NCBI GenBank assembly: GCA_950106755.1
Contig: OX467089.1
Span: 27,757,345-27,821,344 of the forward strand
Length of the DNA: 64,000 nt
Source of the DNA: Climacium dendroides
Lineage: Eukaryota; Streptophyta; Bryopsida; Hypnales; Climaciaceae
Direction: 5' to 3'
Positions 13,861 through 54,365 of this stretch are shown one piece after another; position 1 is the first letter of the stretch; every line of letters starts with the position of its first letter. The notes under the pieces were generated by a model. It ran no database searches. It was not told the origin of the DNA and was given only the letters and a program-made list of their open reading frames with translations. The position numbers and the translations under genes are program-made.

Positions 13861-13913
13861 ATGGCATCCGGACCAGTACGGAAGGTAGCGATATCTGCCC
13901 GGATTATCTCTCC
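13861..13913 (+). pseudogene. Start of host copy 2 ORF1, interrupted by element A
   Basis: The frame starting MASGPVRK at 13861 runs into the target site TTATCTCTCC (13904-13913). It resumes after element A at 31270-31279 and the downstream host sequence. The ORF was therefore opened close to its start by the insertion. Confidence 0.7.
13904..13913 (+). repeat. Left target-site duplication of element A
   Basis: TTATCTCTCC, repeated exactly at 31270-31279. A 10-bp duplication fits Mutator-like transposons (8-11 bp). Confidence 0.9.
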
Positions 13914-14100
13914 TAACGACGCTAGCGTGCGAGCCTGGAGCCGTGAGCCTGTGAGCGGCGAGCGGGAAGCGGGGAGTCAGAAATTTATCATTTTTTGTTT
14001 AATAAAATTTTTTTTTGCTAAAAGAATTCAAAAAATTCAATTTTTTTGGTTGTTTATGTTGAATTTGGGACCTATATCCGTGCATCCCATGACCGTGGAT
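13914..14100 (+). repeat. Element A transposase-side terminus and first subterminal repeat
   Basis: TAACGAC + GCTAGCGTGCGAGCC, then G-rich GAGC/GTGAGC repeats, a T/A tract, and GGACCTATATCCGTGC followed by CATGACCGTGGAT (14068-14100). The same order is found at 45733-45911. These are likely transposase binding sites. Confidence 0.8.
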
Positions 14101-14957
14101 GAGTAAATATTTTGGAAATTTATTATTCTGTTTTAGAAAAATCCACCGCATGGTGAGAATGAAAGTCATTGTTTAGGATTTTAGGAGAAAGCGTACCTCA
14201 GAAAAAAATGGGTTTTAGTTCCTATTAAAGCTAAATTTAGGACCTATAACCACTTATCCTATGACTGTGGATTAAAAAATATATTAAGTGCTACTTGAAT
14301 CCTTTGTACAAGCTTCATTTAATTTTTTAAACAAAATCACACGAGTGTTGGGAATATAATTCTCCTCAAGATGACTGAGAAAGTCTATTCCCTAAATAGT
14401 CCTCTACAACACCTGACTACCGGATATTACACTTTTTATATTGGTGCAATCCGCAATGCCAATCGATATGGGACATATGAATAGGAGCCGGGGAACATTG
14501 GTTTAGGCACTCTTCTCTATTTTCAGCACTCATCGATATTCTGTGCTAACAAACTACCATGAATGCTTGCATAAGTGTGGTTTACAGTTTGCAACAATGA
14601 TCCAAAAAAAGTAGAGATAAAGAATCCATGCCTTCATGTTTAAGTCTCTTGAACCTCTTGCTGCATTAATCCTTTTTAATGAAGTGATCACCAACATAAA
14701 AAAATTTACTTCAATGAACACATAGTATACTTCAAAAAATAATGACAAAGCAATCAAACTTCCAAATAAAAACATAATGATTGAAGTCTTGGAATCAATA
14801 TTAATGAAATCCAAACTACAAGTGGAAAGACGAAATGAACAAAATGATGAATTTCGTAAGAAAATGATAACTTCCTTAGTAAACAGAAAATATTTAGAAT
14901 TCTATGAAATTTTGTCTTCTATCATACCATTGCAGTACTTTCAACTAGTGCCTGCTC
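14101..14957. other. Element A interior between terminus and transposase stop
   Basis: Apart from the subterminal repeat at 14240-14273, no gene is supported. It is AT-rich and presumably includes the transposase 3' UTR. Confidence 0.5.
14240..14273 (+). repeat. Second subterminal repeat of element A
   Basis: GGACCTATAACCACTTATCC followed by TATGACTGTGGATT is a variant of the unit at 14068-14100. It resembles the form at the CAGGGTT end (32356-32403). Confidence 0.7.
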
Positions 14958-16481
14958 TTATTCTAGCACTCTTATTATCCCCGCCTTAACTAAAATAAGT
15001 TTCAACTCGTTGAAGCTATAGCTTGGTGCATGGATGAACTTGTCCTCATTTATGTCCATTTTGCAAAAGTACCGGAAAAGATAATACAAATGCTTGCAAT
15101 TCACATACTATTGTCGACTTCCTATTGCTGAAACTGCCATAGAAGTAAAGTTAGGACACGTGCACGATGGGTACATGCCCACAGTAATTCGATATACATT
15201 TGAATTTGGTTCAACCCCAGTTTGTAGTGAAACAATCGCTCCTAAACCAGGAAATGGTAACAACGTCACTCCCAATATCTCTCCTTTGATGTTGCCAGCA
15301 CTCTTCCACTTGTTGCGTTGTTTAATTGTAGGTGCATTTGCAATTCGGCGAATAGTACGACTGTTTTGTACAGTTGGATATATGTGTGCGTCTTTTGGAA
15401 CTGGTTCGTCATATACCACAGTCTCAAATATTTTAGACATACTGAATAGTCGTCGAGGAGATAACACAGGACGTTTTTGAAGTCGAAATCCAGCATGCTG
15501 CAACAATAACGTCTCCTCTCGGGTAAGATTTGTTCCTGTTAAGATTGGCCATACTTCAGGAACCTCCGGCCACTCTATAACCCACCTCCGTTTGTTACCC
15601 TTGACGCACCGTTCAATGTCATCTGCACAGAACCAAAAGTCTGCCACTATTTCTTTCTTGGTCCCGTAATCTATCTTTCTTCCACTATAGGTTGGAGCAA
15701 GGGTTCCCTTCCGACCTTTGGCAATCTTTGCCTTGCAAGTGATGTTTGAATCTCGTTGTTGAGCATAACATTTTGCATTGGACTTGTGACTAATCCTTGC
15801 AATGTGCCATTTCGATGTATCACAATTACTTTCAAACGCAACTGTAACATGTGTCGGAGTGTTCACTTGAGGTTGCTTACCTTTATCTCCTGAAGATTCT
15901 ATTGACGCTGTCATGGACCGTGTCCGAACACGAGGTTGGGAAAAGTTAACTTTATCAGGTCTATGCGAGTCCCCTGCATCGCCAATGGGAACGTCTAACT
16001 TCCTCTTTGTGCTCCCAAAAACCTCTTCTCCTTCTAAATGTGGAATGCGAGTTCCAACACCTTCAGAACCAGGCAATGAATTCAAAGCCTTTGCAATTTT
16101 CTTAGGATCACCGCTACGTCTTGCTGCTCTCAACTTTAGCTCTCCTTTCGACAAACCAGATCCAGAAGCGTGTCCCTTCAAGTACGCTCGGTAATTTGTC
16201 ATTTGCATCCATGCACGAATACTGTCATCACATGTGGCGTCAAAGAGATTGTTTCCTTTGTTCCCAGACATTTGAAGCCACTTGTTGTGCACAGTTTCTG
16301 ACAAATTGCATGAAGGCATATCTGCAAGTTCCTCCAAATTCAAATCCTGAAAATGAAACCACTCAAATATTACGCTTTGGTAATTCAATATTTCATACCA
16401 TCTTCAAAAACCCTCAGAGATACAAATGAATATTTATAAGTCCATAAATAAAAAGTGATGGTGTTAATAAGGACTTCAAAT

Positions 16482-16505
16482 ACCCTCGTCGGATCCGACG
16501 AGGGT
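16482..16505. repeat. Intronic hairpin h1 (core TCGGATCCGA)
   Basis: A perfect 24-nt palindrome in the intron of the element A transposase gene, with weaker pairing of the flanks. Confidence 0.8.
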
Positions 16506-16741
16506 CTCAGGTATTTCTATTACTACCCTCGTTTTTGGTTTAGGGGGCGAAATTCAAAATTCTTCCTAAACCTGAAACAAAAATACAAATTCAAAACACC
16601 TTTACTCAATGTTTTATTGGAGGCAAAAAATGAACCCCTTACATCTAAATTAGGGATTTTATGTCACCCCAACAATCATCACATTTTTTTTTAATTTTTG
16701 GAAATTTTTTGTCTGAATTCCTCAAACATGAACCCAAAGTA

Positions 16742-16812
16742 AGGGTACTTAGAAGGATCCAATATAGCCCCGTCGGATCCGAAGGGGGTATTGAAGGTCC
16801 CTCCTCTTACCT
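16742..16812. repeat. Intronic hairpin h2 (core TCGGATCCGA)
   Basis: The arms from GGTACTTAGAAGGA on the left and the reverse complement of the right side (GGTAAGAGGAGGGA) pair imperfectly around the core. It lies in the same intron as h1. Confidence 0.65.
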
Positions 16813-19288
16813 CCACTTTAGATTTGTACACTAATTTTTTGTGAAAATTTTTGAAAAAAAATGATAATTTTTTCTAAGATGCTAAAATTCATCTAATGTA
16901 TACAACTCCTATTTGATGGATGTATTTATTGTCCTTCTTTATACACCAACTTTGAATCAGTCCTTAACATTTCTATTTTTCTTAAAGGAATGATTTAGGA
17001 AATCGAATCGACATTCTAAGTAAATTATATAAATATGAATTATTTTTCTAAATTTTTTTGAATTAAAATAAAATAAAATTTGCAAATGGAATTTCAAAGA
17101 TAGAAGGTGTCCAAGGAAATTGACTTACCATTTGCATGAATCCTCCCCATTGCCTATATCAAAAATGCCAAAAGGCAAGCCAATGTTCTAAGTGGTGAAG
17201 AGCATCTTCAGTAGTGGCTCCTGACGACAACCACCACGACTGAATTGCCAAGTATTTGTTTTCTGCTTCCTCCATGGACTTCGCATCTTTGTACTGTTTA
17301 CAAAGTAAAGTGTGCTGCTGTTGAAATGCTTCTTTAATGTACTTCTGTGTATGTTTTTGGAGTGAAGTACTCCAATGCAATAAGCCTGTTCTTTCCCTAT
17401 TCTCCATTTTCTGATCTGCAAAACCACTTCCGTATACAATTCGTATGGCATTCCAGTTGGCCATAGCACTATCAGCCATAAATCCTTTAAAATTCGGGTT
17501 TTCAACTCCGTGTTGCGACATTACAGCATTCAAGCACTTCCAAAAGAGAACCTGAATCTCAGTATCTTCTGATTGCATATCACAAATTCCAATGGTCATG
17601 ACCCTCTTGTAATCTGGATCATACACTTGGCAAGCCATTGTCGTCTACTCCTTTATACACTTGACGTGGTCGAACATCATCCATGCATTCTGATGATTTC
17701 CACCAAGTTGCATGCGTTTCACTAGGTCCACACCACTTCCAGGTCCCTCAGTGAGCATCTTGAAAATGAACACCTTCTCCTTTCCTTGGCCAGGAAAGAC
17801 GCTGTCGTGAATGAATTCAAATTTTGACTGTTTCTTCATTATCATTATGTTGTCGATGATGCCTCCATAGTTGTTTGAGCGAAATGAGGATATGACGTTT
17901 CTAATGTTGGGACTGCTTAGGTACTGGAAACGATCCATAACCACTTTTAGCTCTTCATCCTTCAACATCTCTTTCTCTCCCTCTCCGTTATGAAACAAAT
18001 ATGTCGTGAGGAAATCTTTGCTTGCAGAGAGAGCAATGGCAGAGTTTGTGGTAGGAGGGGTCTTTGCCACTTGCTCTGCAATGAGTTCGCAAATCTTGTC
18101 TGCAGAATCTCTATACATGCCTTTTGCTACTAGATGAGAATGATATCCAAGATGAATTGCAGCCCTTGTCACTTTAGGAACCTCACTATAGCAATAGTAT
18201 ATTCTAGCCTCACATTGCTTTAGACACTTTGGAGTCTCCTTGCAAAGTTTGCAAACTAACGTACAATCCTTAGAAGGATTGTAGCCTACTACAAATGGAG
18301 ACACTGTATATCCACTCCACTCTGTCTCATTGCGCTTACTAGCTCTCTTCACATATTCCCAATCAGGATTCACACAAATAAGATGACCAACGCAATAGGA
18401 CTTCCGGAATTTCAACTTATCAGGGTTATGAATATTGGTAGTTTGTACCTTACACTACACATGTCCATCATAACGTTTGTCCATCCCCTCCAAATTCCCA
18501 GCAGCCGATGAAGATGGCCACGTGCGGCATGGAGGCAACTCGAAGATGACATCCCCATTGAAGATTGGTGGAAGAAACCCAACTTGATGGTGCTTGATGG
18601 CATTCAAATCTATTGTGGACAGTTCGTTCCTAGATCTATGCATGCTCTTCAAATTCTTCAAGCATTCCATTATGCTTTTCCTATCAAGTGTAAGCGGATA
18701 CAATGGAGGACGAGACAATGGAGACTGTGTAGAAGTATTGGTTTGGATGTCCGAAAAGGAATGGAAAATCTCACGACTATCAACATTATTTCCAATGGAT
18801 GGCGGTTTCTCACGGACAGTAACGTCAGGTGACTCTCCTTCTGATTCACTTGACAAATCTATTACAGAGTCCAATTTCTCAATCTTTACAACGCGTAGAA
18901 AAGTACTTGGACTAGGACTTGGAAATTCGCTCTCAAGAGGTTGAGGAGAGATTGCACTTGTGACATACGGCATATCTACAGTGGAGTTATCGGACTGGCG
19001 ACTGACCATCTACGTGGATGCATTTTGAATGGACAAAGGAAGACCATAAGCTCTATAGTTGCCTAAAGGAAGGAACCAACAAACTCCATCCTCATCTTCA
19101 CTCTTTGTAATAGGAACAAACTCCATGTTCTCACTACATTCAGACTTCCTCTCCTCTTCTATGTAGATTGAAGACTCAACAAACCTGAAACATACATGTA
19201 GAAGATGACTAGATACTCTCGCTTGATTTCCACCAGCCAACGGAAACACCATTGGAATTGCATGACCGTCTACTCTAATGCAAGCCAT

Positions 19289-21824
19289 AGTGATAAAACA
19301 GCAGTGCAAAACAAACGATTTAGAAGCAAGAGATACATTGAAGTCTTGAACTATAAAGACAGAAGCTAGAAGATGTGAGGTACTATATAGTAAACACAAA
19401 TTATGTTGTTTCAATTCTACCAATACCATTCCAAAAGTACAAATTGTTTGGTGAAGTGTAATTGTCAGTAGGTGTAAAAATTATTCATATGGCAGAGCCG
19501 TCATTTAGTTCAAATATTGTTGCTTTCAATAGAATTTAGTGAAATAAATGGGATGTCACAACTCTGGAAGAAGTTTCATTCAAAAAACAAAAATTTATGA
19601 GTCTACCGTTGTAGCCGTGTTCAATAAAAGGTTCGTTAAAAAAATATATTTATGAATGAAGGCAGCTCTGACAAAATGCGTGAAAGAGATCGCTCATTCA
19701 AATGTGTCGGTCTTATATCCTAGAGTAAAAGATACATAATCTAATAAGGTGTCAGAATTAGAAGACGGCTCATCAAATGTTAAGTGGGCTGTCCATAATA
19801 TTCAAATAAAAAGGCGGTAGTTCTCCCAACCCTAATCTTCCAAGGCCGTTTGAGACTTTGAGTGAACGAACCTAGTTGGTAACGTTAAATAAATAGGCTC
19901 TACATCTCCTTCTTTCATGTCTTTCCATCTGCAGCGTTTAACATAGACACCATGCTTTTCATCGATTGAGACCTCTGAGGCTTATGTAGTGGTATTCATG
20001 CTTACAAATTGTGATAGATTTGCAGACGTAGTTCCAGACCATAGAAACAAACGGAAGAGACGTATTTCTCTTTATTTCTCATCTCAGAAGTCACTTAGAC
20101 GATCTAGAATGACTCGCTCAAAGAAAACTTCGTCCAAGATAGGCCAGTCGTCGTAGATAGAACTTCAAAAACATCTTCGTTTTGAAAGTGGAGGCAGTGG
20201 TGGAGAAATGGATTGAGAAGTGCAGGAGTTAGAATGGACGAAGACAACTGATGAGGGCATGACAAGCTTGCAAGGCATCTCAGAAGGTGATCAACTTTTA
20301 CTAGTAAGATTCTACGGACCAACTCTTACCCTTTCAATGCTTTGCAATATGTTGGAATTAGATGTAAAAAATATTCCAGGCTGTCTCACCTCTCCAAAAT
20401 GAAGTTTCAACTCTTAGGTGTGCAATCTGAGAACCTACTAGCTTATGTGGTTTATTATCACTTTGTCATTCTTTTCCATCAAGCGGGAAACTCGGAATCG
20501 CAAAGATGGGTGAGTTCACGAGCCTTGGGTCCCAAAGTGTCACGGAGGACAAAAAGTGTCCTCACACAGTTTTAAGTCTACTATAACTTCTCCATCCAAG
20601 GTTCAAATCTACTAAAACTTATTGGAGAAGTTGCACTTATTCTTCTTGTTTATGTGGTTAAATTTTCAAATCAATCAAAGATGTGTTGTTTCTTTAGTAG
20701 CCAATCAAAGAGCTCAGCTTTGCAAAAGTTCACAAAATTGCATTTTAGAGCTGCAACTTCAGGGACTTGTATCTTCTTCATTAATGATTTGTTTTCATTG
20801 AAATTTGTTTTGATTTGTTTTTCTTGAAGTCTAGTTATTGTGGTAAAATTTTCATGTCAATCCAAGTTGTTTGGAATGTTTGGGAGCAATTCGAAGTTCT
20901 AAACCCTGTCATTTTTGGAGTACAATGAACTTTGATGGCTTATATCTTCTTCGTACAAAGTCCGTTTTCAATAAAACTTATTGGGAAAGTTGTGCCTACA
21001 AGTCTAGTTTGTGCGGCTAAAATTTCATGTCAATCCAAGAAGAATTGAGTGACTGAGAAGCATTCTAGTGGGGAGAGGTTCAGCCCTAGATGTGGTTTTT
21101 GCACTTTTTTTGACTATTTTTTGGCAGTTCGAATCTGTTTTTTAGACACCATGACTCAATTTCATGAATTTTTTTTTCACCAATGTGTTTGTATAGTAGT
21201 TTTAAATCACTTTGTACTGTAAATTTCTTTCATTTTAGTAGGTTTAGAAATCAAATTTCACCTCTAAATGTGTTTTGGGAAAAATTTCAGCATTCATTTT
21301 CAACACTTAATCATTATGATCTCACAATCTATGCGACCAATTGACTTCAAGTTTTGTGCACGTCATCTAAAACATGTTTACTACGAGATTGTATGGTTGA
21401 GATTTGTATAACTTGAAGAAATTTAGGTCCGCATAGCTTCAAAAGCAAGGATGTTTTTGGACCCCGGATATCTCATGTCACTTTGGGGTTAAAGGAAACC
21501 CAGACTCTGCAACTGTACCGTCTCTTTCTCGGGACCAGCTGTCTAGTTGTAGCTTTCCAGAAGCCACGCTACATCCATTTCGGAAATAGAATTCTAGTAG
21601 CTTTTTTTGGAATTCTCCTATCTTCAACGTCTGGAGACGATTTTGCCACAGGAGTCCACCCCTCGCCACTAGTATCAAGGCCTGCAGCCCGAAGTGAAGC
21701 TCGCAGCACACCTCCGGCAACTTTGATCAATCTGCTCTTGCTTGGAATTCAAAACGGCATTCTTTCTTATTCTCAATTCGTTCACAACTTGAAATTGCAT
21801 AGTCGAAATTTAAAATTTCTGACG
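19289..21824. promoter_or_regulatory. Divergent intergenic region of element A
   Basis: This 2.5-kb spacer separates the transposase start (19288) from the first methyltransferase-gene ATG (21825) and should hold both promoters. At 20600-21050 three degenerate repeats share CTTATTGG(A/G)(A/G)AAGTTG and TTCA(T/A)(G/A)TCAATC(C/A)AAG. No further gene is supported. An open frame entering 21825 from upstream is not conserved in B. Confidence 0.5.
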
Positions 21825-22037
21825 ATGTCGACCTTGCAGCGCCCCAGCAAAGGTCAACCTCGTAGGAGAACTCGGAGCCGCCCACTAGAGGAAGATTTTG
21901 AGGAAGCATTGGAACGCGAGAATCAAGATGCAAGTTTGCAGGTACAATTCTAGATAGCATGAACTTCTCTTTTGTTCAATCTGAGTGGGTGTGGAGGTAG
22001 CTTGGATTGCATTGTGAACTGATTCCCGTAGTCGATC

Positions 22038-22095
22038 AAGGTACCTGTGGACAAGCGTCGGACCCGACAGGGGTCCTGCGGTGATCTCCGGTTAC
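22038..22095. repeat. Intronic hairpin h3 (core TCGGACCCGA)
   Basis: Imperfect arms start GGTACCTG on the left and end GGTTACCC on the right, in the first intron of the element A methyltransferase gene. Confidence 0.5.
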
Positions 22096-22282
22096 CCTTG
22101 TATTTTGTCCTCGAAGGCAAATTCAGATGTGAACCCCTGCTTCGGGACCACTATTGAGAGTCTGAGAGATCATCGGTAGTCTGAGTTTGAGCATTGATCT
22201 TGGCTCACCAGCCTTGTTATAGTTTCCTGGGGGAAGGGTCCTTCGGAGCCTGCTGCTACCCTTCACGGGATCCTCAGGGAGA

Positions 22283-22590
22283 GTGCGGTTGGATGATCTG
22301 CTCGGTGCCTACACGGGATCCTCAGGGAGAGTGTGGTTCGGTGATTTGCTAGGTACCTACACGAGATCCTCATGGAGAGTGCGAGCGCAGTTGGGTGACC
22401 TGCTCGGTGCCTCTGGGTCTCGACTGTGTTGCATGTCCATGTCGCGGTTGTGTGATCTGCTCGGTGCCTCTAGGTCTCGACTGTGTTGCATATCCATGTC
22501 GCAGTTGTGTGATCTGCTCGGTGCCTCGGGTCCCGACTGTATTGCATGATCTGCTCGGTGCCTACGGGTCCCGACTTTTTTGCGATGTCG
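22283..22590 (+). repeat. Tandem cassettes GATCTGCTCGGTGCC in intron 1
   Basis: Seven copies of GA(T/C)(C/T)TGCT(C/A)GGT(G/A)CCT(A/C) occur at irregular spacing. The first carry ACACGGGATCCTCA-type spacers and the later ones GGTCTCGACTGTGTTGCAT-type spacers. Base composition is much more GC-rich than the surroundings. Confidence 0.8.
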
Positions 22591-23294
22591 CCTAGTACTG
22601 TTGTGATCGTTGGACGTGAGTGGTGGTGGTGGGCATCCGGGGGGCGTGATTCACCCATTGCTTGGGAAACGAAAGTTTGAAACTTGGATTATTAGAGCGG
22701 TTGGAAGGTGGGTGCCGTATCCTTGTCTGTCTTGGTTGAAGTGTGTCCCTGTCTGCGTTGTTAGCGTTGTCCGCGTGAGAATCTCGTGACGTCTGAGACT
22801 CCCTGAAGACCGCTGCCGCGCCCCTGAGGGTCTCGTGGCACGAGGGGAGGGGGGGGCAAATCAGTGCAAGATCCATCGACGCAACGATGACCGTCTTTCG
22901 ATGCATGCTAGGCGGACTTGTCTGTCAAGATTCCCGGCTTCCAATTGCATTGATATTTGTATCTGCGGAACCTCGTGCTACCCGAGCGGGTCTTGCCCCC
23001 TGGGTGTCCCGCCTGTCAACGTTGTGAACTGAATTGTCCATATGAAGTCTGTCGCCTTGATCGATGGCGGACGCAGAGGGTTGGTCTTGTGCCGATACGC
23101 AGCGCCCAGCTGATCTTGCGGCGACTCCCGCGGCCAAAGCAATCTTGGGGCGAGTGTCCATCTCCGCCAGGTCGACCCCAGTTCCTTTGCTAGCGTTCCC
23201 GTTCCCTTCTGAAGCTCTCCTCCAGCGAGCCCTGGGGATCAGCGTGACGCGAGGCGCGGTGGCGGTCGAGGGGTTACATTCAGGTCAAAAAGTG

Positions 23295-23455
23295 AGGGAA
23301 TGAGGCGGGATCGTGTCGACGCCGTCACTGGCCGAGGCGAGGTCCACGGGGTCCAGTCCGTGAGTTTAGAAGAACGAAAGTTTGCCGCGCCACGCCGACG
23401 CCGTCACTGGCCGAGGCAGGGTCCAGTCTATGAGTCCGGAAGAACGAAAGTATGC
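23295..23455 (+). repeat. Direct duplication GACGCCGTCACTGGCCGAGG
   Basis: The segment 23318-23380 (GACGCCGTCACTGGCCGAGG, then GGTCCAGTC, then AGAACGAAAGT, then GCCGCG) recurs at about 23398-23460. Both are inside intron 1. Confidence 0.75.
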
Positions 23456-23466
23456 CGCGGCCGTTT

Positions 23467-23543
23467 TGGGGGGTATCTTGAGCAACCTGTCGACCTCCGT
23501 CGGACCCGACAGGGTTCCCTCGCAACGTTCCAAATACCCCCAC
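23467..23543. repeat. Intronic hairpin h4 (core TCGGACCCGA)
   Basis: The arms start GGGGGTATCTTGAGC and end with the reverse complement of GGGGGTATTTGGAAC. It lies in intron 1 of the element A methyltransferase gene. Confidence 0.65.
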
Positions 23544-24016
23544 TTTCTGTCATTTAAGACGTTTCTCCCTCGGTACCGATGCATGCTCTGTCTGCAGCGT
23601 CAGTTCATGAGAAGTCAAATTGTTTTGTCTTGCGTTTGGGATGCATCCAAGATGCGTATGTGCGTTCGGATTGGATTTGGTGACTAGCTTTGTTTACAAA
23701 TTGGTAGGGTTCAGGCATTGTCCATTTCATAATGCGGTGAACTGCTTCCTTGAATTTTTGATTCGGTTAGTTTTGGATTTGGTGACCTTAGGTTCCTAAG
23801 TTTGTTGATGATTTGTGACCTCTTGCATTGTTGAGTACAAAAATCAGGATGTGTTAGTTGTAGTTTGGATGACTTTGGAATCAAGATATTCCCTCTTGGT
23901 GAGAGTAGCAAATATACAAAAGAAAACTCCATAATGGAGATTCCAAGAATTTCATTTTTGGAGATAGCCGAATTATTTAATTTGAATCGATCCATTTTTC
24001 CAAAAGTCAGAATCTA

Positions 24017-24089
24017 CGGGTAGTGGGAGCATCGCAGTGCACCCTCGTCGAGTCCAACTAGGGTCAAGTAAGTAGCTGCAGCTACCCCT
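24017..24089. repeat. Intronic hairpin h5 (degenerate core)
   Basis: The core is CGTCGAGTCCAACTAGGG. The arms begin GGGTAGTGGGAGC and end GCAGCTACCCC. This is the most diverged member by eye. Confidence 0.45.
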
Positions 24090-24158
24090 GTATTCCGTCA
24101 CATGAGAGGGTCAAATAAAAAATAGAGTACAAGTACCACTTCGATGACTAATTTTGAG

Positions 24159-24225
24159 GGTGTCTTCAAGTTCTTCCATAACCCTTGTCGGATCCGACGG
24201 GCATTAAACGGAATCTGAAGACACC
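24159..24225. repeat. Intronic hairpin h6 (core TCGGATCCGA)
   Basis: The 5' arm GGTGTCTTCAAG pairs with the 3' arm CTGAAGACACC, followed inward by imperfect pairing up to the core. Confidence 0.75.
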
Positions 24226-25019
24226 ACATGAATCCGTCACATGAGGGGACCCAAACTAGAATTATATCCTTTTTTTTATTGTTTTCCTTCCAATGTTGAT
24301 TTTTTTAATGATATTTTCTATTACATGTTCCTCATCATGCAAATATGTGTAATAGTTCATTATTTGAATAGATTTCACTAAAATTACAATAATTCATATA
24401 GTAGGATACATAATTTTATGTCTACATGTAATTTCAATTGTTCATAATTTATTAAAACAAACATTGAAAATGATATGAAAATTTTAAGAATGACTAATTT
24501 TATGCATGCATATTGTATATTAATTTTACATTGAATAAATTATATTAAAGTATGAAATTTTGAAAGGCTTCTACAGATTTTTTGTCTTTATTATTTTGAA
24601 AACATATTTAGATAGTTTAGGGTAAATAACTAAATTGTAAATTTCTTTACTTAGATTCATTCATGTATCTCATTTTTCCTCATTTTTCTTTCATTTTATG
24701 TTGGGATAAGTTCAAAGGATAAAGTATGTTATTAGATACCATCACTATAATAATAAAAGTAATTCCTTAATTATTTCCTTGAATAAGAGATGAAGCAATT
24801 GAAATGCATAGGTGACACTTGGCTTCTACACTTATAGTGTTCTTTAAAAATACTTTGCCTTAGAAAAATTAGATTTTAATTTTTATTAATTTTTTTTAAT
24901 TTTTTAATTTTTTAATTTCTTTTGCTTTCCAAAGCTTTTAGAGGAGCATCCCTTGATTCATATTTCTTTGAATTAATTATTATGTCAAATATTAAATTGT
25001 TTGGTGGAATGCTTTATAG
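24226..25019. other. 3' part of element A intron 1, AT-rich
   Basis: No gene or repeat is supported. It ends at the acceptor TTTATAG before 25020. Confidence 0.5.
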
Positions 25020-27941
25020 ATGGATACGACGGCCGTGAATTCTAGCATAGCATCATCTTTGCATGTAGAATCTGAAGTCTTGGGCCAGGAGATTGTGGAG
25101 GAGCGAGTTACACAGACACCAAGGCCACTTCCAATGATGGAAAGCAACAATTTAGAACTTGAAGTGGATGTGGTGAGTTTTGATGATATTATGGATGCGT
25201 GTGATCGTGCTACTGATGAGCTTGAGCAAGATAAGGGAAGCCGAATTAGTTTCCCAAAGCCTCGTTATCCTAGAAAACCTGTTTTCTCAGTAGAGAGTTC
25301 TGACACAGAGGGTTGTGACATTTCCTCATTCAGCTCTGATGCTGATTTGTCCCCGTCGATTTCTAGTCCTTGGGGTCCTGTGCGTTGTGATTGTTTAGGA
25401 CGGAAACAATTGCGATATAATCGCTTGGTCATCATTCACCAGTGTTCCAACTTTCAAGATGATGTAGACATTGAATGATTTTTTTAATGAAAAGGATATA
25501 TGAATTTGTGGCAATTTATTCTATGCATATATAAATTTCCATTTGTCAAGTATCTATGTATGTATGACGTACACTATTTAAATACATTTAAGATTGATTC
25601 ATTGTATGGAATTAATAAATTTCGTTCATAAATAACTAGCATTTTGTTTTATCAACTGGCCAAAAGCATAGCTAGAATTTTTGGTAATAAATTCTTACTA
25701 TTATTGTATACATCATTGCACATATAATTTTATGATGAATACATTTTATTTAAGCTTCTTGTTTGACATTCTATTGACAAGGAGTGTCTTTCTACTATTT
25801 GGTGTTTTTTATTTTATAGAGAGAAGATTCGCCACTGATATTGTCCCAAAACCAGCAACACCAAGTTACACCTGTAACGGATGACTCTCAACAACCAGAC
25901 ATAGAAGGTGAAGTAATGTTAGGAGCGGGTCGAGATGAGATTTGGAACAAGGCACTGGAGGAGACAAAGTTTGAGGAAGAAGACAAAGATTTTCTTGAGG
26001 ATGAGCTTCGTCGTTTTCACAAGGTCGACTCTGTGGCAACATTATCGATGCTGAGGTTTAAGCCAGAGAGCTTATCGTGCATGAAGATCCCGCTTTGCAG
26101 GTTAGTGCCAATGCTGATGGTTAGGCCAACACTTTCTTCCGATTTACAGAAACTTGAGCAAGACTTTGCTCATGGTTATCGAGATGGAGCAGCGTCATTT
26201 TATGTTTCGACAACCAATGAGGCCGGCGAGAGAGCAGAGTTCAGTAAGGAGGAGGTTCAAAATTGGGGCCCCCTATGGCAACAAAGAAATGATGAGTTCC
26301 TAGCATTTTTGGAAACAAGGCCAGAGTTGCATTTCATGAGGAATATGAAGTTCTTCATATGTGATGGCAACCATCGACAGATTGCATGGATGAGCCATAT
26401 CCAAAGAAAGTATCCTTTGGACATCAACTAGCATTTTTCGGTGGATTGCATCATGCTGGAAACCAAAGGAAGAGTGGAAATGACGATGCAAGTGATGCAT
26501 GCAATTAACAAGTACGTGATTTGTTTTTCTTAATTTTTCCATTGTTTATTTATATTTCATCTTATTCATGTTGGTTTATGATAGATTGTGTGATTGCTGT
26601 GTGAATTGAAAATTTGAGTTTAATATTTCAGGTCCACTGAAGATTCACATGTGAAGACGAATTTGGTGCACACGTTGTACTATGTGCAAAAGTACGGGAA
26701 AATGGAGATAAAGAAGATCTACGAGATGTTGAGGCCCTCAGAAAGGAAGCAATGCGTGTATCAAATGGGTAGAAAGGCATGGTATTCTATGCCTGTGGAA
26801 GTTTTCACATCATTTAATTTTAGGGTGAGTTCAGTTTTGCCTACTACATTCTTTTTCTTTACAAAAAAATAAGGTAGGCGCTCTAAATTCTGAGTTTCAT
26901 TACTTACAAATTTCTGGTGATGAATATCATTTGCAGCATAAAATTTCTCAGGCTACGGACGTTGCTGCTCGACGTTACCTTGATAAGACACCTGCTGAAG
27001 AAAGAACCAACCGAGGAGTTGCTGACGCCATGAGATCTGCAGCAAAAGAAAAAGTCTCAAAGTTACGTGGAAAGATGGGCAAGTTACTAGCCGTTGCAGA
27101 TCCTGCTCTTGGAAAAGAATTTCTTGAAGAGGTAATTTTAAAAATTCCAATCAAATGAGTTATTTGTTTTGCTTATTTTGCGAAAAAGATGCATATTTAT
27201 TAACATAATGTTATTTTGTAGGTGGAGGAGCATTGGGTTAGGAATGAGGTTCCTGAAATGACTTTGGAAAAGCTACAATTGCTTGCAACAAGCACAATGT
27301 CTGCAGCTCATAAGCTCAAAGTCTTAAAATGGTGGAATTCTTCCGGTGCTTCAAAAGAGGCATTGAAGTTTCCAGTGCCCCCAGTCTCAAAAGATAAATT
27401 CACAATTTTTCTTGGAAAAATTGTTTGGTGGGCCGGGGTAATGTCCCTTACCATACAAAATGGTTGTTGTCAAGAATAGTTATTTTGAATGCAATTTCAT
27501 GCCCTTTGCTGCATTTGAAATGAATAACTTTTTGTTCAATGGAAGTTGCATTTCTTGGATGAGAAAGTTAATTGTTTTGTTTCATGTAGCTTGAAGACGC
27601 GGCTCAGGAGTATTTAGACAACATTGTGGCAAATGACAAGCTAGTCATCAACATGGACTTGCCCAAACCCCCAGAAACTCTAGCAGCGTACATTCAAGGG
27701 TGGAGGGTGAAGCTATGGGAATACGCGTTTGGCCCAACTTTGAAGGGAACCAACAACTTCAAAAAGCATGATTCATTCTCGAGTCGCGAAGGATCGGACC
27801 AAGCCGTCCGAAGGGTTCTATACCGGTAAGATTTCAAATATATAATTTAATGTTGGAATTGACAAGTGAAATAAAAATTAAGAAATTATTTTTCAATTTT
27901 TGTAATTTTTCTTCAAATCTCTTGGGAATCCAAAAGTAGGA

Positions 27942-28007
27942 GTACTAGGAGGGAGCGATCATACCCTCGTCGGATCCGAAGGGGGTACAAGGGCTCCCTG
28001 CCAGTAC
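27942..28007. repeat. Intronic hairpin h7 (core TCGGATCCGA)
   Basis: The arms GTACTAGGAGGGAGC and, reverse complemented from the right, GTACTGGCAGGGAGC pair well. It lies in the intron between exons 7 and 8 of the element A methyltransferase gene. Confidence 0.8.
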
Positions 28008-28356
28008 CCCCATTTTTTGTTTTCTAAGAGAACTTATCATTTTTTTTTAAATGATATGGTAGATGAATAATAAGTTTGGATCATTTCTGAATGGTTACTT
28101 ATTTCAAGATGTTTATTTCCTTTTTATAAATTATTTTTAGGCAAATGAATAGAAAATAATAAAGAGACAATATTTTTTGATCCTCAAAACTAGCAATTGG
28201 AATTTACCTTGTGTTCATTTTTTCTTGTTGATGTTCATTTAAAAAAAGTTAATAAAAGTTTTCTAGGGACCTTTTCCTCTGGTTCTATGTTGTGTTTCTC
28301 CTTATGAATGAAAATTGTTCATTTTTCCGACTAAAAATTAAAAAACTAAAAAAATT

Positions 28357-28428
28357 GGAGTATCAAAAGGGACCATGAATACCTCCTTCGGACCCGACAG
28401 GGGTGTTCTGCCTCCCTTCTCGTACCCC
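28357..28428. repeat. Intronic hairpin h8 (core TCGGACCCGA)
   Basis: The arms GGAGTATCAAAAGGGACC and GGGGTACGAGAAGGGAGG (right side reverse complemented) pair. It is in the same intron as h7. Confidence 0.75.
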
Positions 28429-30821
28429 ACCTTTTGGTGAAGCATAGTTCAATGTAATTTTGGAAGGGATTCATTTCATGTTCAATTGAGTTCTTAGAAC
28501 ATTTATGAGTGTTGAAGTTGATAAAATACAAGACCTAATATTCTAAAAATTATATAGGCTACTATCTTTTCAAACATTGGCTTATGATTGTGCTCATATT
28601 CTAGGTACTTCAATCTTGAGCTTGTTTCTAAAGGCACTATTTCACAAGGCTCTTTACCTCCTTTCCTTACGTCTTGGGTGGATCGGAGTTCAAAAGAGTG
28701 CATGTTTTCACCCACTCAGCTCCGAACGTTTACAACAGCTAATTTGATTGGTGGCGGATGGTACTTGGAGTGCCCACTCGAGTACACCCACTCTTCAAAA
28801 GTTACATTGCGCAAATCATTTGACGGACTTGGGGTGATTGATTTAGAGGTGCCCGAATTTGCGGACCTTCCCGATGCCCAAAAGAAGAAAGCTATTTTAC
28901 GCAGAACAATTGCAGATGAGAAGAAGAAGAAAAAAGAAAACGACATGAAGGCTAACAAGGAGAAGAAAGGAGCAGAGCGTTTAGCAAAGTTGGCTGAGAA
29001 GGAGAAGGAGGTAGAGAAGGAGAAGGAGGCAGAGAAGGAAGGGAAGTATAAAGGTAAAGGGAAGAAGAAGGTGGAAGGTAGAGATCAAGTGCCTGGATCT
29101 TGTATAGTGGACCAAGGATCGCAAATGGAGTCTGGAACACGTAGTGGCGTGAAGAGGAAGGCGGTCTTGCAAGAGCTCACTAAAGAAATGGTCACACAAG
29201 GCACCCAAGTGATTGCTATTGGAGATGACGAGGAGGTGAACACGGAGGAGTTGATTCTCAACAACTCTATCATTGATGTGATGGAAAATGAAGGCAAGGG
29301 AAATGGATCATGCTATGGGGAAGTTATGGAGTTCTTGGTGAAGGTGTCTATTTTATATTTGAGTTTTTGCCATGTCACAATATCAACATATTGCATGAAC
29401 TTATTATTTTGAATTCTTGGAATCATTTATAGATATTTTGTATGCAGGTGGCTGATGGCAAGACTCGCATGTTCAATGGTGAGATGAGCAAAAAGGCTGG
29501 AGTTGATCTCATTTTGTTTGACCTTCAAGAAAGCCTCCCTGTTCCAGGAGTGTCTGTACCAAAAAACCATGTGCCCGAATGGAACCATGATAAAGAGTTC
29601 AAAGAGATTGAATAGGCAATTTTATTTGCAACGAAACATTTGCAAGACAATGGTTGTTTTGTCATTTTTCATTCCTGGAGTGCAAAGGCAAGGGGCGTGG
29701 TGGTTGGTTTGACTCAGGCATATCCATTCTTAAAGTTGAAAGAGTGGTTGGGAATCAATCGCATGCACTTGACTTCAGGCCTCAATCCGACAAACACGGT
29801 ATGGATGTCTTGCAATTTAGTGGTTGTTTTATTTTTGTGCTTGGGATTGATTGCATTATGTATTATAAATGTTTAATTGAATTTTGGACTTGCAGACAAT
29901 GAAGTTCGGAATCTCGTTGTTGGTGAAGAAGCTTGACAAGAGACGAAAGTTTCAGTTCAAGTTCAAGTTGACTGAAGCAATGAAGAAGGCCAAAGTAGAT
30001 CTTGAACGTGACGATACGTTGATCAACTATTCCACCATTGACAGTATGTTGATGAATGGAAGCGTACCGTGGCGGGGTCCTCGTGAGAAAGACGCAAGGC
30101 TTCTTCAATTCATCATTGAAGGAACAACAAGCGAAGGAGACATTGTCTTCATAATACAGGAGCAACTGGTAAGGTTAAGCTCAAGTGGAATTGTTTTCAT
30201 TTATAAAATTCTGAATCCCCAATTTTGCTAATGAATTGCATGTGTTTATTGTTAGGTGCATCAATTACGGCATGTCGAGGGACGGGCCGACATGTTGTAG
30301 CTTTGGAGAAGGATGAAGCCATTTTCAACGCGATCTTGCTGCCTATGAAGAAGATGATTGAGGAGGAAGAGACGACAGAAGAAGAAGAAGAAGAGGAAGA
30401 GGATGACAATATTAAAGATCCTGATGCAATGGAGGTGGAGGTCTTTAGTTTTGCTCGGAATCAAAACACTAGTAAGTAAGTTTTCAAAGGTGTGCATTCA
30501 ATGTGAATATTTTGTTGCTTGTGTTTATGATTTTAACATATTTTAATTTGATTTTGCAGACACCAAAAAGTGACATTCCACGATGCAACATTGCGCAAAA
30601 GAAGACTTGTTTTGACTCCGGAAAAGTCTTTTCATTTGCCAGTGTATGCAGAGCAGATGGCCTCGGCATTTATAGAGTTTGGTGGTTCTAAACCAAAGAA
30701 GCGACAAGACACTTATGCTTTAAATGTGTTAGAGTATTTAGATGTAAGTGCATCGGAAGGTAGAGAGACTTCTGATTCTTCTACTAACAATGATTCTGCA
30801 ACCAAATCCTCTGTTGCCTAG

Positions 30822-31184
30822 ATTCACAAGGTAGACATGTCTTGTGAGTTATAGTTTCTTGTATTTCTTTTTTCATATGAGTGGATTTGTGTGTTTTATG
30901 GTTACATTCATTGTACACATTGTTATTTTCAAATTTTGTCTTGGAGTGAACCCTAAACCCTAAACATTCAATACCATTAAACACATGTATAGAATAACTT
31001 ACCACTACATATCTTAAATCCTAAACCCTAAACCCTAAACCCTAAACCTTCATACCGTAAACCACTTATATGTAATAATTCATGTACAATTGTTTGGGTT
31101 TATTTGGGTTGAATTATTAACCATTTTTCCTAAACAATCCAGAAAGATTTTGTCTTCAAAATTATAAAAATGAACAATCATAAG
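30822..31184. other. Element A 3' flank of the methyltransferase gene
   Basis: Untranslated sequence containing CCTAAACC runs and no gene. Confidence 0.5.
31019..31049 (+). repeat. Interstitial telomere-type repeat (CCCTAAA)
   Basis: About four tandem CCCTAAA units, preceded at 30954-30965 by a shorter run. This is the plant-type telomere repeat. The position, inside the terminus of a transposon, is unusual. Confidence 0.85.
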
Positions 31185-31269
31185 ATCCACGGTTATAGGT
31201 CCTTCATCTGAATTTCCAGCAAAAAAGTTCCCACTCTCACGCTCACAGGCTCACACGCTAGCAACCCTG
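31185..31269 (-). repeat. Element A methyltransferase-side terminus (CAGGGTT end)
   Basis: Read inward from 31269: CAGGGTT + GCTAGCGTGTGAGCC, G-rich GTGAGC repeats, a T tract, then GGACCTATAACCGTGGAT (31202-31185). It matches the end at 32240 in both hexamer and order. Confidence 0.85.
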
Positions 31270-31279
31270 TTATCTCTCC
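31270..31279 (+). repeat. Right target-site duplication of element A
   Basis: TTATCTCTCC, identical to 13904-13913. Confidence 0.9.
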
Positions 31280-32239
31280 GGCCATTTCGGCTAATTCGGA
31301 ACTACACAAACAGTTAGAGGAAGACTTAACTAAGTTAGGGTATATTGGTCTACTACACCGACCATGGAACCTCAAAAGTGAGGATATGATCCAGGAGCTA
31401 CTTCATGGTGTTCCAAATTAGTATGAGTTCACTTTGAGGGGGCGGCCAGTCACGTGGACCGAGGACATCTGGGCGGATGTCTATCAATTCCGGAAGAGCG
31501 GAAACGGGTTGGCATCAAGGACGGACCGTTTTGTAGTTGGGAAGTTCACAGGGTCTGCAAACCCTAAGGACGGATTCGCTATTAGCCAATGCAAGGACGA
31601 GAGACATAGGCGGATACTAGAGTTCCTCATCCCCATCCTGTATCCGGAAAAACCTACACGGGTTACCATTACGGTGGCCAATACTATTTTCGGGGCTATG
31701 GAAAATCGAGTGGTGCACTAGGGTAGAGTCATAGCCGGGATAGTTGCTAAGTTAGCGGATCATGTGACCCGAGCGAAGGCGAGTCCAGTTAGCACCTACT
31801 TGTTCCATTTATACCATCAGCAAGAACTTTTGAGCGCGGCGGAAGTAATCCAGTATGACACCGGAAAGGCGATTCTGTCATATGGACTTTCTAGGGAGGA
31901 AGCGGAAGATCCGATCGAGTCAAAACCGGAAGAACTCCCCGAGGAACACTTGATCAATCCGAGGAACAAGAAGAGGAAGTCAACCGATCCGGGATCGCGA
32001 TCCAAGCCACCGGCGATGGAGAGGGGGGAGTCCAGCAAAGGACCGGAAGTGGAAACTGAATCAGCATTTTTCAATGCTGGGTTCGAATGGATACGTGAGG
32101 CCAAGGTATTCCACGACAGCTTGGCAGATCTGGTGATAGATACCACGGAAGTTTTGAAGGTAGAACCGGACCAGATTGTGGAAGCTGTCAAGCGACTGCC
32201 CAAGCCGGAAGATCTAAAGAGAAGGGAGGACCGGATTCA
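31280..32239 (+). pseudogene. Middle part of host copy 2 ORF1
   Basis: This continues the frame opened at 13861. In-frame TAG stops occur at about 31419 and 31719, after which the frame is open from 31764 to the insertion point at 32239. The product has an aromatic/charged N-terminal region (T-W-T-E-D-I-W-A-D-V), then a K/E/P linker with K-K-R-K, then the start of a coiled coil (K-R-R-E-D-R-I). The C-terminal portion parallels residues at the beginning of host copy 1. The continuation lies inverted at 45732-44897. Confidence 0.65.
32230..32239 (+). repeat. Target-site duplication of element B, host 5' side
   Basis: ACCGGATTCA directly precedes a CAGGGTT end. Its exact reverse complement, TGAATCCGGT, lies at 45723-45732 directly before a CAACGAC end. 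Confidence 0.85.
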
Positions 32240-32403
32240 CAGGGTTGCTAGCGTGCGAGCTTGGAAGCAAGAACTTGCGAGCCTGTGAGCGGGAATTTTG
32301 TTTAAGAAAAATTTTGTGCAAAAATCAAAAGTTGAATAGAGGGTCGGCAACGAACCCATGACCGTGGATTTAGGGTGACTATAGGCTCTATAACCGTGGA
32401 TTA
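32240..32403 (+). mobile_element. Detached CAGGGTT end of element B
   Basis: CAGGGTTGCTAGCGTGCGAGC is followed by GTGAGC repeats, then CCCATGACCGTGGATT and CTATAACCGTGGATTA (32356-32403), the subterminal repeats of this family. The extent beyond 32403 is unknown. The terminus points to the right, but no matching gene end follows it, so it seems separated from the body of B by a rearrangement. Confidence 0.75.
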
Positions 32404-44896: not shown

Positions 44897-45732
44897 TCAA
44901 GTCTGGATATGACGCATTGCGGGAGACGGATCGTTGTCCCCTTCAGTTCCGGAAGTGGAGTGTGCACTCTCTTCCTCGGAATCGTCAATGACTTGAACTT
45001 CCTTCTCCTTCTCTGGCGGTGTATCCTCCAATGTCGCGGGTTCGCTTCTCTTTTCCGGTGTGGTCTTTTGCATATGCGAGAATCCTTCCGGATTGGTCAT
45101 TCCACCGATCCGGTTGATGAGGTCTCCTCTAACTTGCTGTCCTGGAACTTTGAATGTTCCGCTCATCAGGTTCGGCACTGTTTGTGACTTGGGAATTTCC
45201 GGAGTCGAGAATTTGGGTGGTCCCGGAACCGATTTCACGCTAGACTCAGGTTCCGGTTCCGAAGTTGGCCTCAAATTCAGCTCCGTCATCAGCATCTTGC
45301 TGGCGGAAGGCTCGACTGGCGTGAGTATCCCTCTCAATCCCTCCATTCGAGTTGCACGATCCGCTATTTGCCTCCCTGGAGTACCCGAGACAAAAAAAAG
45401 TTCCGAAAAGGTTGAGAAATCCATCACCTGATTTGGATCGATGGCCGCCAATAGCTGCCGAAGCTCCCCCAAAACTCGCTCTATCTTAGTAGTGAAGTCC
45501 ACGAGGATGGTCATTATCTTGGTTCCGGTGATGTGGCCTTCCGATATCATCTTCGAGTCAAACAAAGCCGCTTTCGTGATGACGTCGGCTTTGATGTCGA
45601 TTGCTTCGGATAGATTCTTGATAAGAGAGAGAGACTCCTTCTCTTTCTCCTTTGAAGTTGCCATTTTCCCTTCCGCCCAATTCAATTGGGCTTGGAGTTG
45701 GTTTCGTTCCGCCTCCAACTTCTGAATCCGGT
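44897..45732 (-). pseudogene. C-terminal half of host copy 2 ORF1, inverted
   Basis: The frame enters from the element B target site (R-I-Q-K-L-E-A-E-R-N-Q, a coiled coil) and runs to a TAG at 44899-44897, with an S/P/E-rich tail. It continues the frame that stops at 32239 on the other strand and matches the order of motifs in host copy 1. Codons upstream of 45732 on this strand are read-through into the transposon end and not part of the protein. Confidence 0.65.
45723..45732 (-). repeat. Target-site duplication of element B, host 3' side (inverted)
   Basis: TGAATCCGGT, the reverse complement of 32230-32239. Confidence 0.85.
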
Positions 45733-45911
45733 CAACGACGCTAGCATGCGAGCTTGGAGCGGGGAGCTTGTGAGCGGGGAGCATGGAGCCAAAAATTTCC
45801 CATTTTTTTCCCACTTTTTTTTTTTTGGCAAAAAATATTCAAAAAATTGATTTTTTTTGGCTGTTTAGGGTGAATTTGGGACCTATGTCCGTGTACCCCA
45901 TGACCGTGGAT
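45733..45911 (+). repeat. Element B transposase-side terminus and subterminal repeat
   Basis: The same outer heptamer type (YAACGAC), GCTAGC box, GAGC repeats, T tract and CATGACCGTGGAT unit as at 13914-14100. Confidence 0.8.
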
Positions 45912-46253
45912 GTATAGATGCTTATGCAAATTTTTAATCTGTTTTTGTAGAAAACTAGGCAATCTTGTCTTGTGAACATTGCCGTGGGAACTCTTCACCG
46001 TTTTCAGCACTCATGATACTTAGTATTGCCGTACGAGCAGGAATTTAAAACATTTTGTATTGCAAAGTTTCTTGCAATTAAAAATAACGGCAAAAACTTT
46101 AGAGGGTTTAGGAAAGGCATTGGCCAAAATTGATACGTCAGTGGAAATATAGATGGAACTTTTGATGGGAAAATTTGGCATAAGAATTTTGCAACTGTAA
46201 TATATAAAGAAGAGTTCATTACAACTGAAGTGCATACAGAAACGTGTCTATGC

Positions 46254-49200
46254 CTATTCTGGAAGTGTGGTCATGGCAGCCTGAAGTAGCAACAACTTCA
46301 ATTCATTGAAGCTATAGCTTGGTGCATGAATAAATTTGTCTTCATAGACATCCATCTTGCAAAAGTACCTATACAAATAGTACAAGTGTTTACAGTTCAC
46401 GTATTGCTGCCGACCTCCAATTGCAGAAACTGCCATATTCACAAAGTCTGGGCATGTGCATGTGGGAAATTGGCCCATCGTAACTCTGTATGTATTTTTG
46501 TTAGAGTCTGACCCTGTCTCTAACTCCACAATTGTACCAAGGCCTGGAAAAGGGAGCAGTGTTACTCCCAAAATTTGTCCTTTAACATTGCCTGCGCTTT
46601 CCCACTTGTTCCGTTGCTCGGGAGTAGGCGCATTTGCAATCCTTCGAACTGCTTTGTTGTTCCTCATTGTTGAATACACATTTGAGTTTAGTGGCGGAGG
46701 GTTGTCATACAAAACCGGCTTGAATAGCTTAGACATGTAGAATAGCCGACGTGGTGATAGAATTCGTTGTTCTTGGAGGTGAAATCCAGCATGTTGCAGC
46801 AACAAGGTCTCTTTGCGGGTCAAGTTTGTTCCAAAGAGAACAGGCCAAACCTCTGGCACCTCTGGCCAATCCAAAACCCATTTGCACTTTGTTCCCTTCA
46901 CGCATCGCTCAATATCATCCCAACAGAACCAAAAATTAGCCACCACCTCTCGCTTACTACCATATTCTTCTTTCCTGCCGCGGTAAGTAGGAGCTGGAGT
47001 TCCCTTCTTTCCTTTTGCAATCTTGCTAATGCACTTGATGTTAGACCTGGACTGCTGAGCTTGACATCTTGCGTTGAATTTGTGGCTAATTCTAGCAATG
47101 TACCAGTTGGATGCATCGCAGTCGCTTTCAAATGCTACATTCACATACCCAGAAGTGTTTGCTTGAATTTGCTTACCTTTGTCTGGAGAAGATTGAGAAG
47201 CATTCGTGGTGGATCGTGTTTTGACACAGGGTTGGGAAAAATTGATCTTGTCAGGTCTGTGTGAGTCTCCTGCATCACCGATGGGCACATCCAACTTCCT
47301 CTTAGTGCTCCCAAAGATTTCTTCTCCTTCCAAGTGTGGCACTCTAGTTCCCATGTTCTCTGCCCCAGGCAATGTGTTCAGTGCCTCTGCAATTTTTTGG
47401 GGGTCTCCGCTTCTTCTTGCAGCTCTCAACCTCAACTCCCCTTTTGATGGTCCTGATTCCGCTGCAGAACCTTTCAAGTATGCACGGTAGTTTGTCATTT
47501 GCATCTAAGCGCGGATACCGTCGTCACATGTGGCATCGAACAAACTGTTGCCTTGCTTCCCGGACATTTGTAGCCACTTGTTATGCACCATTTCGGATAG
47601 ATTGCATGATGGCAAATCCAACATCTCCTCCAAATTCAATTTCTGAATTTTGTAATCAAAGGTATAACAGAGTTAATAACAAATATTCACCACCGTTGTA
47701 ACTTGTAGCATCTTCATAAATAATTTTCATTACTTTTATAGTTCTATACGACGAAAGACAAGTACTGACTTCTGATAGTAGAAATCTACTGCTACCGCCA
47801 AACACAACACATCTAGCCTAGTTAAAAACCCAAACCTAAAATAACTGAAAACAATTATGAAATGCAACTATCAATTCAGGTTTAGGGACACAAGTTACAA
47901 GAATCAAGGGGGTCCCCTCCCCACCTCCGACACATGCCTCGGATCCGAGGCACGTATTGGAGGTGGGGAGGGGACCCCTAAGTTTTATTTCCCAAGAGAG
48001 AAAATTGGGCATATTTTATCAAAAAAATTTGAGAGAACTATAACTGTCGCCCCTATTAAAATTTAATTCAGACTCTTCCATTTAGAAAACAGGTAAGGCC
48101 TCATCCAATGGACTATTCATGTCTCAAATCGAAGGCATGTTTTCCTACTATGTGAAGTGTCCCAACTTCTTGATAAATAGAAATAAAATGTAAAACTTAA
48201 TTAACAAAAAGAAGTTCAGAAAAAGTTCTTTATGAAGTACAAAGAACATCATCATACAAAGTGAGCCAGAGATTCCTAAGCACTTAAACACATTTGCGGA
48301 CAAAATTGACTCACCAAGTCCATGAAGCCTCCCCATTGACGGTATCTGAAATGCCAGAAAGCAAGCCAATGGTCCAGGTGATGTAAGCCTTCTTCGTTGG
48401 CCGCACCAGATGACAACCACCAAGACCGTATTGCGAGATAACGGACCTTTGCTTGGTCCATATTCTTTGAATCTTTGTATTGCTTGCACAAAGTTAAATG
48501 TTGTTGTTGAAAAACTTCCTTGATGTACTTTTGTGTGTGCTTGTGAAGAGAGGTACTCCAATGCAATAAGCATGTCCGCTCACGATTCTCCATTTCAACA
48601 TTGGCAAAACCAGTGCCATACACTATCCGCATTGCATTCCAATTGGCCATGGCACTATCTGCCATGAATCCCTTGAAGTTGGGGTTTGCTACTCCGTGGT
48701 GTTGCATAACCGCGTTCAAGCTCCGCCAAAACTGTACTTGCACTTCGGTATCTTCGGATTGCATATCGCACAGTGCAATCGTCATCACTTTTTTGTAGTT
48801 GGTATTATACACGTGGCAAGCCATTGTGGTCCACTCCTTTACTTGCTTCACGTGGTCAAACATTAACCACGCATTCTGCAGGTCTCCATCCGGTTGCATT
48901 CGCTTCACGAGGTCGACTCCACTTCCTGGTCCCTCGGTGAGTATCTTGAAAATGTAAACCTTCTCTTTGCCTTGACCTGGGAAGACACTGTCATGTATGA
49001 ACTCAAACTTAGACTCCTTCATGGTCATGATGTTGTCAATTATCCCTCCTAGGTTGTTTGAGCGGAAAGAAGAGATGACATTTCGAATACTTGGACTACT
49101 CAAGTATTGGAAGCGGTCCATGACCTCTTCCATTTCGTCAGCTTTTAGCATCTGCTTCTCTCCATCTCCATTGTGGAATAGATAGCTTCCGAGGAAGTCC

Positions 49201-53400: not shown

Positions 53401-53517
53401 TGGTGCACCTTGGTGAAACCAGGATCCGGAATTCTGAAGTTCGGCAAATGTAACCGATAGTCTAATTTGGAATCACATATAAAAAAATTTGGGCGTTCAG
53501 TTTGGCCGTTCAGTGAG
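50472..53517. promoter_or_regulatory. Divergent intergenic region of element B
   Basis: The spacer between the transposase start and the 5' part of the methyltransferase gene should include both promoters. It is mostly AT-rich. One open frame (51898-52305, plus) is basic in its first half (R-P-K-Q-R-R-K-R-R-G) and ends at a plausible donor (AAT|GTAAGC at about 52275). It has no counterpart I can see in A, so I do not call it a gene. Confidence 0.4.
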
Positions 53518-53680
53518 GCTATCTAGGAATCCAGTGTACATGACTTCACCGAGGAAGCACGCCAAGGATCCAGCAACGTGGGCGAATCCACGTCAGTCCA
53601 CCGTTGACGCTATCTGGGAATCTAGTGTGCATGACTTCACCGAGGTAGCCCGCCAAGGATCCAGCAACGTGGGCGACAAA
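53518..53680 (+). repeat. Two 70-bp direct repeats, offset 91 bp
   Basis: GCTATCT(A/G)GGAATC(C/T)AGTGT and the following TGACTTCACCGAGG and AGGATCCAGCAACGTGGGCGA occur starting at 53518 and 53609. They lie upstream of the putative first exon of the element B methyltransferase gene. Confidence 0.85.
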
Positions 53681-53891
53681 ATTAGAAACCACTACATTTC
53701 CGGAGATAACCTCACCTGCTTCAAGCCTTATTTGGAATTCCGTGGTCCTCCTTGCTGCTCCATCCACATCGTAGCTGTACTCGATGATTGACAGTGTGTG
53801 CACCTCCATTTGCAAACATTCTCGCATTCTCCCGAAGTCGGTCCGGCAGCAGGTGTGGGAACTGAGCGAACTCTCGTGTGATTTGCAGAGT

Positions 53892-54295: not shown

Positions 54296-54365
54296 GGGGT
54301 CCAGCCGGGAGGCGCCGGTGTAGCTTCGGATCCGAAGCACCTCCAGGCCCTCAACCACGGACCCC
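54296..54365. repeat. Intronic hairpin h10 (core TTCGGATCCGAA)
   Basis: The arms start GGGGTCCAGCC and end CCACGGACCCC, with imperfect pairing between them and a stem of the core plus GC. It lies in the leader intron region of the element B methyltransferase gene. Confidence 0.65.

Follow-up and report, generated by a model that had tools for sequence, protein, structure and literature searches.

A Mutator/IS256-type transposon family of Climacium dendroides with a ParB-methyltransferase-like second gene of altered motif IV

Two transposons in one host reading frame

We analyzed a stretch of 64,000 nucleotides from Climacium dendroides (contig OX467089.1; the window, C38:27757345-27821344 of an assembly of 412.6 Mb in 123 contigs) that holds two related DNA transposons, elements A and B. 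In both, a transposase gene on the minus strand stands beside a gene on the plus strand, hereafter gene 2, whose product joins a ParB-like domain to an N6/N4-methyltransferase-like domain. The features of A are:

13914..31269, plus strand: element A, delimited by its flanking duplication and by restoration of the host frame on excision
13904..13913, no strand: left target-site duplication TTATCTCTCC, exact copy at 31270-31279; excision restores the host frame
31270..31279, no strand: right target-site duplication TTATCTCTCC, exact copy of 13904-13913
14068..14272, plus strand: left subterminal repeats of GACCGTGGAT type, at 14091 and 14263
14986..16346, minus strand: transposase exon 2 with a SWIM-like motif toward its end; 3' limit approximate
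17129..19288, minus strand: transposase exon 1, with in-frame stops (tblastn to P0002, 67.9%)
25820..30821, plus strand: gene 2 (ParB and methyltransferase-like), modelled with 10 exons and interrupted by 2 stops and a frame break
31185..31202, minus strand: right subterminal repeat GGACCTATAACCGTGGAT

Those of B, which lies in two parts, are:

32230..32239, no strand: target-site copy ACCGGATTCA beside the right end, reverse complement of the 10-mer before the left end
32240..32401, plus strand: right end in inverted orientation (CAGGGTTGCTAGC...); subterminal repeats at 32360 and 32392
45723..45732, no strand: target-site copy in inverted orientation (TGAATCCGGT)
45733..60628, plus strand: B from its left end through the gene 2 stop
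45902..45911, plus strand: left subterminal repeat GACCGTGGAT
46254..47642, minus strand: transposase exon 2 with a SWIM-like motif and one in-frame stop
48315..50471, minus strand: transposase exon 1, one in-frame stop
56192..60628, plus strand: gene 2, whole as modelled, 10 exons
56192..56880, plus strand: gene 2 exon with the ParB-like domain
56989-57181, 57291-57479, 57569-57784, 57908-58143, 58375-59098, plus strand: gene 2 middle exons
59208-59555, 59678-59957, 60056-60262 as modelled, plus strand: methyltransferase-like domain (motif IV DCQE, motif I DCTVATG)
60366..60628, plus strand: final gene 2 exon; the modelled start is probably 1 base too early

An earlier note, made from the letters of the window, had described A as a Mutator-like transposon with exact 10-bp flanking duplications and two divergent intron-bearing genes, and this description was borne out: TTATCTCTCC flanks the 17.4-kb element on both sides, and its excision rejoins a host open reading frame (ORF). 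When host sequence was joined across both A and B, keeping one 10-mer each time, a single ORF resulted that starts with the ATG at 13861 and spans 613 codons by coordinates (13861-13913, 31280-32239 and 45722-44897), with 2 in-frame TAG codons before its end. This one restored frame provides an independent check on the boundaries of both elements and indicates that A and B share an ORF as their insertion site, at points about 1 kb from each other and on opposite strands. The ORF gave us the impression of being perhaps retroelement-like; scanning its parts against Pfam produced no convincing match.

The note had also held that B repeats the layout of A, which is correct for the gene arrangement but not for the right end, which lies inverted at 32240 and not rightward of the genes. 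Because this end stands beside ACCGGATTCA, the reverse complement of the TGAATCCGGT that precedes the left end, B has been split by inversion or misassembly, the evidence pointing to a later inversion unless the assembly is wrong there. No further element end was found in the 20 kb beyond the window, and no further copy in 220 kb of flanking genome at E<=1e-5.

Terminal inverted repeats are usual, though not universal, for Mutator-like elements (MULEs), and the MULE transposase core is related to that of IS256. The left and right ends of A and B show short, imperfect inverted similarity (score 64 against a shuffled maximum of 68 for A, and 65 against 41 for B); between the elements, the left ends are alike (253 versus 59 shuffled), and the right ends score 66 versus 72 shuffled. 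The transposase has a DDE core of the Mutator/IS256 type, resembling that of ISCth4, and its second exon carries in A, B and P0001 a CxC...CxH pattern that we take to be a SWIM-like motif, in line with the SWIM-finger transposase proposed before. The 10-bp duplications, found at A and, via the inversion, at B, fall within the 8-11 bp given for MULEs (PMC6446971). The family thus resembles MULEs and the IS256 family in its duplications, its SWIM-like finger and its core, and may differ from MULEs in its short, imperfect terminal repeats and in having no Pfam MULE match. No MULE-type Pfam family was found among 24 transposase relatives at E<=0.1, and a PDB sequence search with the transposase gave no match.

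Sites of GACCGTGGAT type with at most 1 mismatch number 8 in the window, where 1.83 would be expected (none of 100 shuffles reached 8). Six of them are located within A and B, 75-360 bp from the four ends, and face inward; those at 8714 and 41052 do not. Introns and spacers of both elements also contain short palindromic cassettes around TCGGATCCGA (16480-16820, 27930-28434, 47930-47990 and 54295-55120) that resemble small inserted elements (repeat families D8, D11, I1-I4 and I7, partly by eye).

Structure, upkeep and genomic occurrence of gene 2

The modelled introns of gene 2 have GT-AG borders in 9 of 9 cases in A and 8 of 9 in B. The exception is the last B intron, whose modelled acceptor is not AG; by eye, a GT-AG joint is obtained with the donor 4 bases later and the acceptor 1 base later, which keeps the frame and adds one codon. 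The B gene is open over 1114 codons as modelled. The stops and frame break in the A genes (5 in-frame stops in its transposase) and the 2 stops in the B transposase mean that neither copy in the window is whole. Reading TAG as a sense codon was rejected as an explanation, since gene 2 of B is open throughout as modelled, and one of the stops in the A transposase is TGA. Gene 2 likely has extra 5' exons, around 20 kb in A and at 52-55.6 kb in B, with uncertain joints. Just before the ParB exon, a coding-like stretch that by eye ends in an acidic tail and then a stop (25020-25478 in A, 55600-56004 in B) is possibly a retained-intron isoform or a small separate gene.

Selection was gauged from the ratio of nonsynonymous to synonymous differences (pN/pS) between A and B, with stop codons and gaps excluded before counting. 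Synonymous differences are saturated or nearly so. The transposases share 69.2% identity over 1170 codons with a pN/pS of 0.24 [0.21-0.27], and gene 2 exons 1-8 share 51.5% over 951 codons with 0.38 [0.34-0.41]; within the methyltransferase part, exons 7, 8 and 9 give 0.39, 0.36 and 0.49, and the last exon gives 0.63. Constraint at the protein level despite synonymous saturation shows that both genes have been maintained through a long shared history.

The family extends well beyond the window. The 20-base left end, with at most 2 mismatches, occurs 555 times in the assembly (278 and 277), against 2 for a backward control. In each of the 12 left ends retrieved, which headed the list and are all on contig C1, transposase exon 2 lies within 1.5 kb inside and in the expected orientation. 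Among the 60 exon-1 matches scored (of 1415 candidates), 15 contain no stop, and a left end lies about 2.5-3 kb from the transposase match in at least 17 of 26 matches on C1-C34 (lists compared by eye), a lower bound because the listed left ends were all exact matches. Two further copies were chosen for an open transposase exon 1 and examined over the 10 kb beyond it; in both, gene 2 runs opposite to the transposase and its exons follow in order. The examined stretch stops short of the methyltransferase part in one copy and within that part in the other. The two-gene unit is real and, as far as tested (A, B and these two copies), stable: the proposal that gene 2 is a standing component of the family agrees both with purifying selection in A and B and with an identical placement in 2/2 other copies. 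At one left end (L029), a gene 2 fragment lies just outside, around 1577-2147, suggesting that copies insert within each other. Prokaryotic contamination was considered and rejected, given the introns and the searches for relatives, which found none for the ParB exon in GTDB contigs or IMG/VR and none for the transposase in IMG/VR.

The ParB-like and methyltransferase-like domains

Among the families on the fold lists compared, the predicted model of the ParB-like part is closest to ParB structures, some of them with cytidine diphosphate (CDP) or a cytidine triphosphate (CTP) analogue; a PDB sequence search with this part gave no useful match. A single-exon search of a protein collection with gene 2 recovered 215 relatives. 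The full-length protein found no relative there, probably because the relatives in that collection are single exons and the search keeps only similar lengths. The methyltransferase-like part is homologous to DNA methyltransferases. Both domain assignments of the earlier note thus stand, and, judged from homology and the predicted model, the gene 2 protein unites a ParB-like fold with a part of DNA methyltransferase ancestry.

Active beta-class N6/N4 DNA methyltransferases carry a motif IV of the form (D/N/S)PP(Y/F/W) and a motif I of the form FxGxG. In the 3 gene 2 copies read, the motif IV position holds DCQE, DLQE and DCQE, so that both prolines and the aromatic residue are lost and the strict form is absent. 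This motif evidence speaks against ordinary methyl transfer, and the DNA modification envisaged for gene 2 in the note is accordingly doubtful.

Elsewhere in the window, a 518-aa ORF at 7443-8999 contains a P-loop-like GTAGIGKS and has no Pfam match above the cut-off, and 11167-12002 is an array of 11-bp units of ATTACACC type that is open in two overlapping frames.

What the gene 2 protein may do

The reading we favor, with a probability of roughly 0.5, is of a large family of cut-and-paste transposons, of which A and B are old members. Its transposase is of Mutator/IS256 type, and its standing second gene would encode a non-methylating structural or anti-silencing factor. The most likely role of this protein, we infer, is binding the element's own DNA: the ParB-like part would make the contact, perhaps on the GACCGTGGAT-type repeats that lie close to all four ends, while the methyltransferase-fold part would serve DNA or cofactor binding and not methyl transfer. 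Somewhat short of even odds, we suggest that this very abundant family has kept, across a divergence at which synonymous sites are saturated, a ParB fold together with a methyltransferase fold devoid of catalysis. The product would be a pseudo-methyltransferase that reads or shields the ends of its element, a non-enzymatic analogue of anti-silencing factors.

Several observations weigh against the favored reading. The transposase itself matched no Pfam family. Foldseek with the ParB-like part gave no ParB match at E 0.001 (best 6.7e-3), and Pfam returned weak, mixed matches for 87 ParB relatives (KMP11 in 7, best 9.2e-4; DUF1015 in 5). The subterminal repeats, a candidate site for either protein, may bind the transposase rather than the gene 2 product. 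Gene 2 exons 9-10 are less constrained (47.4% identity over 156 codons, pN/pS 0.56 [0.44-0.70]). The loss of methylation is itself inferred from motifs, with motif IV read in three copies and an unbroken motif I in B only (A is broken there); the B motif I departs from the strict form and keeps the aspartate and one glycine.

These last points bear on the rival that gene 2 encodes an active N6-adenine or N4-cytosine methyltransferase marking the element's own DNA through a non-standard motif IV. Besides the homology, purifying selection over the domain fits this idea, as the low ratios of exons 7-8 (0.36-0.39) would be expected of an unusual active enzyme too; among 5 phage relatives, moreover, 3 have the strict motif IV and 2 do not (DLPY and DILY), and motif I varies among them as well. 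With the prolines and aromatic residue gone in all copies read and motif I altered in B, we nevertheless regard an active enzyme as rather doubtful. Conservation of gene 2 together with the transposase, the likeness of the model to ParB structures, some nucleotide-bound, and the repeats near all four ends would also suit a working part of the transposition complex, a ParB-type clamp bridging both ends, which we think unlikely. MULEs tend to acquire host gene fragments (PMC6446971), and gene 2 could in principle be a passenger, acquired a single time and since retained without benefit. This is highly improbable, given the limited protein change between A and B alongside saturated synonymous change and the presence of gene 2 at the corresponding position of 2/2 further copies, and simple capture was rejected on the constraint found in all sub-regions.

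VANC, the anti-silencing second protein of plant VANDAL Mutator elements, is not known as a ParB or methyltransferase protein. The likeness to the present family would be one of role only: a Mutator-type element with a second protein acting on its own epigenetic state (PMC10398659, PMC5735166). Transposons with TET/JBP genes (PMC12730594) likewise are DNA transposons carrying a gene for a DNA-modification enzyme, but theirs is another enzyme, acting on 5-methylcytosine, in other transposase superfamilies. The closest parallel corrects the note's belief that the pair had not been described: PMC12477816 reports a ParB-methyltransferase accessory gene in the Ectocarpus element Sola1-1_Ec32, for which its authors suggest self-modification of DNA, and cites green and red algal transposon cases to Iyer 2011 and Petroll 2025. 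By that description, the Ectocarpus protein has 1104 residues and the gene 2 product 1114 as modelled, about 1100 in each case, with the two domains in common. Each is encoded opposite to the transposase within a giant DNA transposon, of 21.5 kb in Ectocarpus and 17.4 kb here. That element has a Sola1 transposase, unlike the Mutator/IS256-type core and 10-bp duplications found here, and its authors suggest DNA modification, whereas motif IV is changed in the copies we read. The literature searched, in which few subscription papers were covered, held no such gene in a Mutator-type element and no report of the changed motif.

With these results, the reported ParB-methyltransferase accessory genes come to include one in a Mutator/IS256-type family that has hundreds of left ends in a single genome and in which gene 2 has been kept by selection alongside the transposase. 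Self-modification is what the literature has suggested, but with an altered active-site motif in the present family, the possibility that the protein binds without methylating has to be taken into account. This sharpens the question of what ParB-methyltransferase accessory proteins do: gene 2 may manage its element without methylating DNA.
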